NCBI RefSeq assembly: GCF_029338395.1
Contig: NZ_CP119809.1
Span: 2,852,001-2,916,000, forward strand
Origin: Halorussus caseinilyticus
GTDB lineage: Archaea; Halobacteriota; Halobacteria; Halobacteriales; Haladaptataceae
Length of the DNA: 64,000 nucleotides
Reading direction: 5' to 3'
Shown: positions 44,409-47,404 of the stretch, piece after piece
How positions within the stretch are numbered: the first letter of the stretch is position 1
Layout: each line of letters begins with the position of its first letter
Notes under the pieces: generated by a model
The model's database searches: none
What the model saw: the letters and a program-made list of their open reading frames with translations, nothing else
What the model was told of the DNA's origin: nothing
Position numbers and translations under genes: made by a program

Positions 44409-45995
44409 ATGAAAGTCCTCGTAACGGACCCCATCGCCGACGCAGGGTTAGACCGACTTCGGGACGCGGGCCACGAAGTCGAAACCGCCTACGACGTAGA
44501 GGGTGACGCGCTCCTCTCGGCCGTCTCGGACGCGAACGGTCTCATCGTCCGGTCGGGAACCGACGTGTCCGAGGAAGTCTTCGAGGCCGCGACGGACCTC
44601 GTAATCGTGGGCCGGGCGGGTATCGGCGTGGACAACATCGACATCGAATCGGCGACCGAACACGGCGTCATCGTCGCCAACGCGCCGGAGGGCAACGTCC
44701 GTGCCGCGGCCGAACACACCGTCGCCATGGCGTTCGCCGCCGCGCGGTCGATTCCGCAGGCCCACGTCCGCCTGAAGGACGGCGAGTGGGCGAAGGGCGA
44801 CTACCTCGGGACGGAAGTCAACGCCAAGACCCTCGGCGTCGTCGGACTCGGCCGCGTGGGTCAGGAAGTCGCCAAGAAACTCGACTCGCTGGGCATGGAA
44901 CTCGTCGCCTACGACCCCTACATCAGCGAGGACCGCGCCAAGCAACTCGGCGCGGAACTGGTGGACTTGGACGAGTGTCTCGACCGCGCGGACTTCCTGA
45001 CGGTCCACACGCCGCTGACTCCCGAGACGGAAGGTCTCATCAGCGACGAGGAACTCGCCCAGATGGAGGGCGGCTATCTGGTCAACTGCGCCCGCGGCGG
45101 CGTCGTGGACGAGGACGCACTCGCGGCGGCAGTCGAGGACGGCGTTCTCGCCGGTGCCGCGGTGGACGTGTTCGCCGACGAACCCGTCTCGCCGGACAAC
45201 CCGCTTCTCTCGGTTGACGACGTGGTGGTCACGCCCCACCTCGGCGCGAGTACCGAGGCCGCACAGGAGAACGTCGCCACCAGCACCGCCGACCAAGTGG
45301 TCGCGGCGTTCGAAGAGGAACCCGTCGTCAACGCGCTCAACGCCCCGTCCATCGACGAGAGCGCCTTCCCCCGCGTGGAACCGTACATCGGACTCGCCGA
45401 GACCGCGGGCAAAATCGCCACGCAACTGCTGGACGAGCGCATCTCGTCCATCGAGGTCCACTACGAGGGCGACATCGCCGACGAGGACGTGGAACTCGTG
45501 ACTGCGAGCGCCCAGAAGGGCGTGTTCCAACCGCTGGAGTGGCAGGTCAACGCGGTCAACGCGCCCCAAATCGCCGAGGACCGCGGCGTCGAAGTCACCG
45601 AGTCGAAGACCCGCCAGACCGAGGACTTCCAGAGCCTCGTGCGCGTGACCGTCTCGGGCGACGACGAGTCCATCAGCGTCGAAGGAACGCTGTTCGCGGG
45701 CGACGACCCGCGCATCGTCCGCGTGGACGACTACCGCATCGACGCCATCCCCCACGGCCACATGCTGGTCGCCCGCAACGAGGACGCGCCGGGCGTCATC
45801 GGGTTCATCGGGACCACGCTCGGCGACCACGGCGTCAACATCGCGGGGATGTTCAACGCCCGCGAGGCCATCGGCGGCGAGGCGCTGACGGTGTACACCC
45901 TCGACGCGCAGGTCCCCGACGAGGCCAAGCAGGCGGTGGAGAACGACGACCGCATCATCGAAGCGCGCTACATCGAGTTGAACGGCGCGGAGTAG
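44409..45995 (+). CDS. serA: D-3-phosphoglycerate dehydrogenase
   Basis: A 528-residue enzyme catalysing the first step of serine synthesis. The NAD-binding motif is GVVGLGRVGQEVAKKL. Catalytic Arg is in NCARGGVVDE, Glu in VFADEPV and His in VTPHLGAST. The long-form ASB domain (IGLAETAGKIATQLL...) and a C-terminal ACT domain (GHMLVARNEDAPGVIGFIGT) follow, where serine may bind for feedback control. The start is ATG 44409. Length matches archaeal long-type SerA. Confidence 0.97.
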   Translation: MKVLVTDPIADAGLDRLRDAGHEVETAYDVEGDALLSAVSDANGLIVRSGTDVSEEVFEAATDLVIVGRAGIGVDNIDIESATEHGVIVANAPEGNVRAAAEHTVAMAFAAARSIPQAHVRLKDGEWAKGDYLGTEVNAKTLGVVGLGRVGQEVAKKLDSLGMELVAYDPYISEDRAKQLGAELVDLDECLDRADFLTVHTPLTPETEGLISDEELAQMEGGYLVNCARGGVVDEDALAAAVEDGVLAGAAVDVFADEPVSPDNPLLSVDDVVVTPHLGASTEAAQENVATSTADQVVAAFEEEPVVNALNAPSIDESAFPRVEPYIGLAETAGKIATQLLDERISSIEVHYEGDIADEDVELVTASAQKGVFQPLEWQVNAVNAPQIAEDRGVEVTESKTRQTEDFQSLVRVTVSGDDESISVEGTLFAGDDPRIVRVDDYRIDAIPHGHMLVARNEDAPGVIGFIGTTLGDHGVNIAGMFNAREAIGGEALTVYTLDAQVPDEAKQAVENDDRIIEARYIELNGAE

Positions 45996-46116
45996 CGCAG
46001 ATATACAGAATTTTTGAAGTCGTTTCGGAATGGGTCAGTAGTGACTTCTTGGGTTACTTCGGGTAGTCAGCCGATAGAACACGCTCGACTACGGAAGTAC
46101 GTCGGATAGAAATCCG

Positions 46117-46195
46117 GCACGGCGCTGCAACGCCGCGCTACCGATGCTCTGGGAAATCTCTCCGCACTGCTGACTGGAGTATCCCAGCCTTCGCT
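46117..46195. ncRNA. Candidate structured RNA or regulatory element, copy 1
   Basis: It contains the hairpin CGGCGCTGCAACGCCG, then TGCTCTGGGAAATCTC, CTGCTGA and CAGCCTTCG in this order. The same blocks in the same order form copy 2 about 170 nt on. The strand of transcription is not known. Read on the minus strand, a TTATTTAACTG box lies about 20-30 nt before CGAAGGCTG. Confidence 0.35.
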
Positions 46196-46287
46196 CAACT
46201 CTAGCAGTCGGCAGTTAAATAACTCTGACGATTGTGACGCAAGTGGATATATAGTCATTTAAACCCACCACTGTCGAACTTCGATTT

Positions 46288-46381
46288 GCGCGGCGCTGCA
46301 ACGCCGCGTGTGATGAAATGTGCTTTGGGAAATATCGACACTCTCGACGCTGCTGATAGTTATCGGAGTCCTCAGCCTTCG
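46288..46381. ncRNA. Candidate structured RNA or regulatory element, copy 2
   Basis: It shares with copy 1 the hairpin GCGGCGCTGCAACGCCGC, TGCTTTGGGAAATATC, GCTGCTGA and CAGCCTTCG, with variable spacers. A TTTAAA box near 46257-46263 lies before it on the plus strand. Conservation of discrete blocks with variable spacers suits structure more than coding. Confidence 0.35.
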
Positions 46382-46444
46382 GTTCGTGCCGAAACGTTGG
46401 GACCGAGTTGACCTGAAGGTCGGGCTTTCGGGCCTGCGCCTGTC

Positions 46445-46494
46445 GGCGGAAGACACGCCCGACGACTCCTCGTAGGAGTCTCGGCACTTCCGCC
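46445..46494. other. Long GC-rich stem-loop
   Basis: GGCGGAAG (46445-46452) pairs with CTTCCGCC (46487-46494). Inside, GACTCCT and AGGAGTC pair around CGT. It lies 85 nt before the second htpX and could end a transcript from the element pair. Confidence 0.45.
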
Positions 46495-46579
46495 CGGTCG
46501 GTTTCTGGCGCTATCCACGCACCGACGAGCCTTCTGCACAACCACCGCTTATTAGTGGCGTCACTGTCCAAGCCCGGAC

Positions 46580-47404
46580 ATGAGAAATCTCGGACTCAAG
46601 GCTCGAATGGCGGTCGTCGGGTCGATGCTGTTCGCGTTCTACGCGGTGGCCGCCGTCGCGGCGATGGGAATCTTCGGCTTCCCGCCGGTCCTCGTCGCGC
46701 TCGGGAGCGTCGCCTTCGTCGGCGTCCAGTACAAAATCGGCAAGTGGGCCGCGCTCCGGAGCGTCGGCGCGGAGGAGATGCCAGAAGACCGCTTCCCCGA
46801 AATCCACCGACAGGTCGAGTCGCTGTCGAAGGACATGGGCATCGACAAGCCCCGCCTGATGGTGGCCCGGATGGGCGTGCCCAACGCCTTCGCGGTCGGT
46901 CGGAAGGGCGCGGGGACCGTCGTCGTCTCCGAGGAGTTACTTCAGATGCTCGACAGTCGCGAGGTCGAGGGCGTCCTCGCGCACGAACTCGCCCACATCC
47001 GGAACCGCGACGTGGTGATGATGGTCCTCGGGCAGGGCGTGGCCTCCATCGTCGCCATCGTCGCTCAGTGGGTGGTCCTGCTGACCGGCGACAACGACCT
47101 CGCCGACTTCTTCCTCGCCATCGTCGTGGGCCAGATTACCCAGATGCTCGTGATGGTGTTCGTCTTCGCCATCTCGCGTTACCGCGAATACGTCGCCGAC
47201 CGCGACGCCGCCGCGGAAATCGGCAGTGGCGAACCGCTGGCCCGCGCACTCGAAAAGATTAGCCGCGGGAGCGAACGCGCCCGCGAGTCCAAAATCGACG
47301 CCGAGACGAGCGCACTGTGCATCTTCGGCGAGGGGACCGGTCTCGCGCGACTGTTCGCCAGTCACCCGCCGGTCGAGAAGCGAATCGAGCGCCTGCGTAA
47401 CTGA
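46580..47404 (+). CDS. htpX: M48-family zinc metalloprotease HtpX, second copy
   Basis: A 274-residue protein. Two N-terminal spans (about 8-50) precede catalytic HELAH at 135-139 (GVLAHELAHIRNRD). Two further spans follow, then the third ligand in RYREYVADRDAA. The C-terminal FASHPPVEKRIERLR is conserved. It differs from the copy at 13748 by a shorter last loop and no DIREQS-type insert. It probably degrades membrane proteins under stress. The start is ATG 46580, with a CTTATTAG TATA-like box about 30 nt upstream. Confidence 0.92.
   Translation: MRNLGLKARMAVVGSMLFAFYAVAAVAAMGIFGFPPVLVALGSVAFVGVQYKIGKWAALRSVGAEEMPEDRFPEIHRQVESLSKDMGIDKPRLMVARMGVPNAFAVGRKGAGTVVVSEELLQMLDSREVEGVLAHELAHIRNRDVVMMVLGQGVASIVAIVAQWVVLLTGDNDLADFFLAIVVGQITQMLVMVFVFAISRYREYVADRDAAAEIGSGEPLARALEKISRGSERARESKIDAETSALCIFGEGTGLARLFASHPPVEKRIERLRN

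Follow-up and report, generated by a model that had tools for sequence, protein, structure and literature searches.

A candidate type I toxin-antitoxin-like module with matched hairpin loops between serA and htpX in Halorussus

Antisense control of the Hok/Sok, RNAI/RNAII and CopA/CopT type works by recognition through complementary hairpin loops, and the antisense RNAs of these systems overlap their target genes in cis. CreTA combines an RNA toxin with a crRNA-like RNA acting through Cascade, and this antitoxin, which carries parts of CRISPR repeats, is located beside cas genes. To our knowledge, no toxin-like small protein goes with sRNA162, and we know of no earlier type I toxin-antitoxin-like module from archaea. 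The parts of PMC3919570 and PMC11264685 that deal with zor-orz of Escherichia coli describe a type I toxin-antitoxin system with a hydrophobic protein of 29 aa and a divergent sRNA of limited trans complementarity, and passages of the latter report orphan antitoxins (orz-only loci) in E. coli. Among archaea, CreTA of Haloarcula hispanica is reviewed in a section of PMC12737573, sRNA162 of Methanosarcina mazei is presented in parts of PMC3510493 as an antisense sRNA on 5' untranslated regions, and passages of PMC6523106 describe haloarchaeal RNAs that are antisense to type II systems. According to the relevant part of PMC12390103 (2025), the only groups with known type I systems before its cyanobacterial case were Proteobacteria, Firmicutes and Tenericutes. 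We found no archaeal type I toxin-antitoxin system in the open-licence literature, and the novelty of such a module is regarded here as provisional.

The window (the whole analysed stretch, 64,000 nt of Halorussus caseinilyticus contig NZ_CP119809.1) has an intergenic gap of 584 nt between the serA stop (45995) and the htpX start (46580). Names of neighbouring genes are those of the first-pass annotation or were read from the translated sequence rather than taken from a family search. Because the same gap is only 81-82 nt in G012, G023 and G026, where the serA and htpX orthologues adjoin and the element is absent, about 500 nt are extra in the window; a riboswitch of htpX or serA was rejected on account of these three relatives. 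The first-pass annotation had described two segments sharing four blocks in the same order with TATA-like boxes between them, and all four blocks are found in that order and place. Copy 1 (46117-46193) and copy 2 (46288-46381) have 64 identical columns in a gapped alignment. Their hairpin blocks (46117-46137 and 46288-46308) are 95% identical over 21 nt, TGCTyTGGGAAAT is located at 46145 and 46321, GCTGA is present in both copies, and CAGCCTTCG is located at 46185 in copy 1 and 46373 in copy 2. The boxes between the copies are also there, one in each direction, and they diverge (Table 1). Copy 1 consists of the hairpin, the start-region block and CAGCCTTCG, with about a dozen bases missing between blocks, and contains no long frame.

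Outside the hairpin the window copies reach a local score of 22, compared to a mean of 12.5 and a maximum of 23 for 500 shuffles, which is weak by itself. In relatives, the scores of homologous pairs (27-69) exceed the maxima reached by shuffling (20-25); the duplication is therefore not due to chance. Same-loop tandem hairpins were confined to the loci of this module in about 347 kb of scanned DNA (loci partly overlapping), and shuffled DNA gave none. Conservation of the element in relatives, which had been proposed as a check, was confirmed by homologous loci within Halorussus. Rfam gave no match at gathering thresholds over the window, and for 45990-46600 none even with E up to 1.

Table 1 Predicted features of the serA-htpX gap. 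Positions are those of the window; A and B denote copy 1 and the gene containing copy 2, respectively.
Feature	Positions	Strand	Remarks
Element A, predicted antisense RNA of ~84 nt	46109..46192	-	5' end near 46192, 3' end in hairpin and pyrimidine tract; complementary to B; 11 loci in alignment
A hairpin, possible terminator stem	46117..46138	-	Reverse complement of GCACGGCG-CTGCAA-CGCCGCGC; loop complementary to that of B
TATA-like box for A, TTTAAC	46214..46219	-	27 nt before A 5' block
TATA-like box for B, TTTAAA	46258..46263	+	30 nt before B hairpin
B leader hairpin	46288..46309	+	GCGCGGCG-CTGCAA-CGCCGCGT; predicted mRNA 5' end
B ORF, unannotated	46320..46475	+	GTG start, 51 aa and stop; 12 homologous ORFs, codon-position pattern, structure model
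Hairpin within B ORF	46418..46439	+	Weak in window; strong in most srp54-site homologues, with compensatory changes

The first-pass annotation saw no coding potential in this region, a statement that is not correct. Copy 2 sits in the 5' part of a conserved open reading frame of 51 codons, shorter than the usual 60-aa limit of ORF listings, and, as judged from its homologues, is the leader and first codons of a protein-coding gene. The 12 homologous ORFs occur in 8 Halorussus genomes: beside serA (G000 and G021), before srp54 (G000, G011, G019, G021, G022, G024, G025 and G026), before sucC (G021_x2) and at another site (G021_x1). The proteins are 48-51 aa long (59 in G021_x2), and residues 2-19 are hydrophobic or small in 17-18 of 18 positions in 11 ORFs (G021_x2 left out); B is thus small and hydrophobic like type I toxins, which usually have fewer than 60 aa. 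For the seven indel-free ORFs of srp54 type, pairwise differences by codon position are 92/22/183 in codons 18-50 and 149/121/112 in the 17 N-terminal codons, the latter showing no third-position bias. Pooled pN/pS is 0.59 for the whole of B and 0.47 for its C-terminal part, values that are moderate and partly confounded by the internal hairpin with its compensatory changes. The AlphaFold2 model (mean pLDDT 66) has a helix at residues 2-21 and strands at 30-35 and 38-43, the conserved C-terminal part being predicted as strand-turn-strand; from this model the product appears to be a single-span membrane protein with one N-terminal hydrophobic helix. Neither Pfam and NCBIfam (three proteins) nor a sequence comparison to PDB gave a match. 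The hairpin precedes the start codon by 9-12 nt in the eight complete serA and srp54 pairs, and a plus-strand TATA-like box is found 29-30 nt upstream of the B hairpin in 8 of the 9 complete pairs. The exception, G021_x2, has no box at -30 and counts against the antisense reading developed below. In srp54-type ORFs (L047-L052) we also observed an internal hairpin GGTCAGGCC-GTGG-GGTCTGACC whose pairing is kept by compensatory changes, for example in G024.

Copy 1, referred to as A, reads differently. Similarity between A and B begins at the B hairpin, approximately at the predicted mRNA start, and ends near the predicted minus-strand start of A. In minus-strand orientation the hairpin is the final block of A, and in most elements a pyrimidine-rich tract was seen by eye behind it (in the window, the reverse complement of 46109-46113). 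All 11 A elements have a minus-strand TATA-like match 27-36 nt ahead of the 5' block, compared to matches at 27 of 4873 background positions. Of the 8 base pairs in the stem of the A hairpin, 3 have changes on both sides, and 98.9% of cells are paired. A second hairpin was seen on folding in most A elements; RNAalifold did not recover it from the MAFFT alignment, in which that part aligns poorly, so we claim no covariation for it. In G021_x2, A is located downstream of B and faces it, and a shared divergent spacer is therefore not needed.

The strand tests, like their anchors, were picked after seeing the data. Among non-Watson-Crick pairs in 11 A hairpins, five are G-U only on the minus strand, none only on the plus strand and one is of another kind; the corresponding numbers for 11 B hairpins are two plus, two minus and two other, an even split that speaks against the antisense reading. 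Folding of A gave a mean z of about -2.5 on the minus and -2.1 on the plus strand, with the minus strand better in 8 of 11, which is a weak argument, and the serA element of G024 showed no significant folding on the minus strand. Comparison of A to B in the nine complete pairs gave 603 identical columns, 67 transitions and 44 transversions. Of the transitions, 43 are G-U-compatible in a duplex of A RNA and B mRNA and 24 are not (p 0.027), although transcription-linked base skew could yield the same sign. The left copy is probably a minus-strand antisense RNA, complementary in trans to the leader and start region of B.

The first-pass annotation was right that the element is structured and duplicated and that a small RNA is likely involved. 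Its proposal of two paralogous plus-strand small RNAs, or of tandem cis-regulatory RNAs of htpX, could draw on the fact that the hairpins fold on either strand; we consider it very improbable, since copy 2 is the start of an ORF, the wobbles of A suit the minus strand alone, and serA and htpX do without the element in the three relatives above.

The hairpin loops also support the antisense reading. The six-base loops of A and B are identical in 9 of 9 pairs, and their stems differ in 7 of 9; within pairs, differences amount to 0 of 54 loop bases and 21 of 144 stem bases (Fisher p 0.0013). The loop is CTGCAA at the serA site of G000 and TTGCAG at that of G021, CTAGGA (four genomes) or TCCTAG (two genomes) at the srp54 site, and CTACAA at the sucC site of G021. 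Every change or flip (CTGCAA/TTGCAG, CTAGGA/TCCTAG) is found in both partners together. Dispersed DNA repeats (REP or MITE-like) that landed near a small gene would account for a hairpin as such, and Halorussus genomes do have a dispersed hairpin, GCGCGGCG-CTCGTG-CGCCGCGC, with the same stem letters. However, loops of the module match in pairs and differ among sites, the similarity extends far past the hairpin, and the spacing of the hairpins to TATA-like boxes and start codons is nearly constant, so that a repeat origin seems hardly credible.

As for pairing, the predicted RNA next to the gene is complementary to the B mRNA in 9 of 9 pairs, judged by sequence, with a longest perfect run of 8-24 nt, or 15-24 nt if G-U is allowed. 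By duplex energy the own partner is best in 8 of 9 rows (A) and 9 of 9 columns (B), and, with the hairpin left out, in 7 of 9 and 9 of 9, respectively. The true matching ranks best of all 720 permutations of the six srp54 pairs, and none of 200,000 random matchings of the nine pairs reaches its duplex energy. This cognate preference supports an interaction of A with B and does not prove it, as relatedness and gene conversion can contribute; co-evolution of the two could come partly from gene conversion. A could, on that basis, be a partial copy of the B leader that is in decay, is kept alike by conversion and has no function as RNA. A and B are indeed homologous and co-evolving, and recombination between hairpins was seen (the hybrid hairpin of G011 and the sucC deletion of G019). 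We nevertheless find this explanation improbable: identical loops with differing stems in seven of nine pairs are not expected from conversion, the minus-strand boxes are at near-fixed spacing, most A elements fold a second hairpin, and A outlasts B.

Complete pairs of A and B were found nine times, at three chromosomal sites in Halorussus (before serA-htpX, srp54 and sucC). DNA and profile searches found the B protein in 8 of 18 Halorussus genomes and in none of 10 other Haladaptataceae genomes, with no convincing homologue in the remaining genomes of 392 drawn from the order. An exact pattern scan of genome contigs gave no match. Six weak matches from the order outside Halorussus (L055-L060; E 0.0009 to 0.01) had no same-loop tandem hairpin, and one further weak match outside the genus is in G369 (L104, E 3.4e-4). 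Protein matches in a Natrinema plasmid (E 0.5) and virus HJTV-4 (E 0.1) were rejected as antisense to annotated genes, model matches L135-L140, L148 and L149 were judged by eye to be coding or other hairpins, and pattern matches GGTGCTACGACACC in G013 and G027 were rejected as sitting in long open frames.

Other hairpins and gene remnants were observed during these searches. The dispersed intergenic CTCGTG-loop hairpin, REP or MITE-like and with a distinct loop, occurs in G000 and G024 (L141, L142, L143, L144, L147). G000 has seven or more matches of equal score, four of which were read, and the stem is longer in some copies. A CTGCAA-loop hairpin lies between apparently divergent genes in two secondary contigs of another genus of the family (L015 ~1502-1530; L008 ~1497-1525). 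In G018 and G020 a hairpin GGTGCTGCAACACC or GGTGCTACAACACC with conserved flanks (L085, L087 and L093, near 1501) is unrelated to the module. G021 has a gene between B and a 54-nt remnant of the C-terminal codons of B, and apparently the same gene is located between serA and htpX in G022 (L065 1501-1554; L061; L026).

Decayed loci mostly retain A and lose or silence the B gene. At G024 serA, G019 sucC and G000 srp54, A is kept with B lost or promoterless. At G011 srp54, B is kept, its hybrid hairpin is joined to the outer flank of A and there is no TATA-like box at -30, therefore neither partner should be expressed from its own promoter. At G021_x1 (L063, 1466-1647), B has a leader hairpin (loop CGGCAA) and a TATA-like box TGTATA at 29 nt, and the model search found no A, which is odd for a strict toxin and a counter-example to a strict toxin-antitoxin pair. 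These observations bear on whether the antisense RNA is real but controls a membrane protein other than a toxin, for example a stress regulator. Such a protein would fit the solitary B of G021, the stable chromosomal sites, the absence of relatives in viral contigs (15 stretches fit the pattern), the lack of defence or phage family matches for five proteins in PADLOC and PHROGs, and a conserved, charged C-terminus whose predicted strand pair sets it apart from the shortest pore peptides. On the other hand, loci with A whose B or promoter was lost exceed B-only loci with an intact promoter by 3 to 1, and we regard a non-toxic product as rather unlikely, while giving it more weight than any other alternative weighed here.

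A type I toxin-antitoxin-like module between serA and htpX is our best reading of the sequence. Complementarity, loop matching, co-evolution, coding and promoter placement have support in the sequence, whereas transcription of the two RNAs, the sequence of pairing steps, repression by A and toxicity of B are inferred. A promoter at ~46258 would give a rightward mRNA beginning at the 5' hairpin (loop CUGCAA) and encoding the 51-aa single-span membrane protein, and a divergent promoter at ~46219 would give a leftward RNA of ~84 nt ending in the matching hairpin. First contact between small RNA and mRNA would be made by the complementary six-base loops; pairing would then extend over the start codon and the codons next to it, so that translation would be blocked and the duplex would probably become open to nuclease attack. 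We consider it likely that the small membrane protein is repressed in this manner, by loop-loop contact followed by start-codon pairing. By analogy with Zor/Orz-like type I systems, B would probably be toxic if unrepressed, a step that, taken alone, we rate as roughly even. Our widest proposal, to which we lean a little less than evenly, is that this would be the first archaeal type I toxin-antitoxin family, with the six-base loop as a specificity key for each chromosomal copy, re-keyed when both partners flip or change it, which would keep paralogous pairs of the same cell from cross-talk. If true, small membrane proteins would have come under antisense-RNA control outside bacteria as well, by separate origin or by spread. 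The three natural loop specificities and matched flips may also provide a test set for RNA-RNA recognition in a halophile, and the locus suggests that what look like paralogous RNA copies can turn out to be an mRNA and the antisense RNA directed at it.

In comparison to known systems, the Halorussus module would work like zor-orz in the proposed reading, a likeness of layout with no sequence or Rfam relation seen here. As far as the cited parts of the zor-orz papers describe, the proposed module would share with it a small hydrophobic protein, a divergent sRNA whose complementarity in trans to the mRNA is limited, duplicated paralogous pairs whose specificity is set by a short stretch, and antitoxin-only loci. 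In zor-orz, according to the same parts, the mRNA has a leader of ~180 nt and is paired within it, ahead of the start codon, whereas the predicted pairing of the Halorussus module takes in the start codon as well as the 5' hairpin. Putative archaeal TATA-type promoters and matched hairpin loops also set the module apart. With control of the Hok/Sok, RNAI/RNAII and CopA/CopT type it would share recognition by complementary loops; its A is a separate diverged copy and not a cis overlap. With CreTA the module would share an RNA antitoxin in a haloarchaeon, and it differs by its protein gene and predicted mRNA pairing. sRNA162, in the parts cited, is, like the predicted A RNA, an archaeal sRNA acting antisense on 5' untranslated regions, and the Halorussus module differs from it by its matched duplicate of the target leader.
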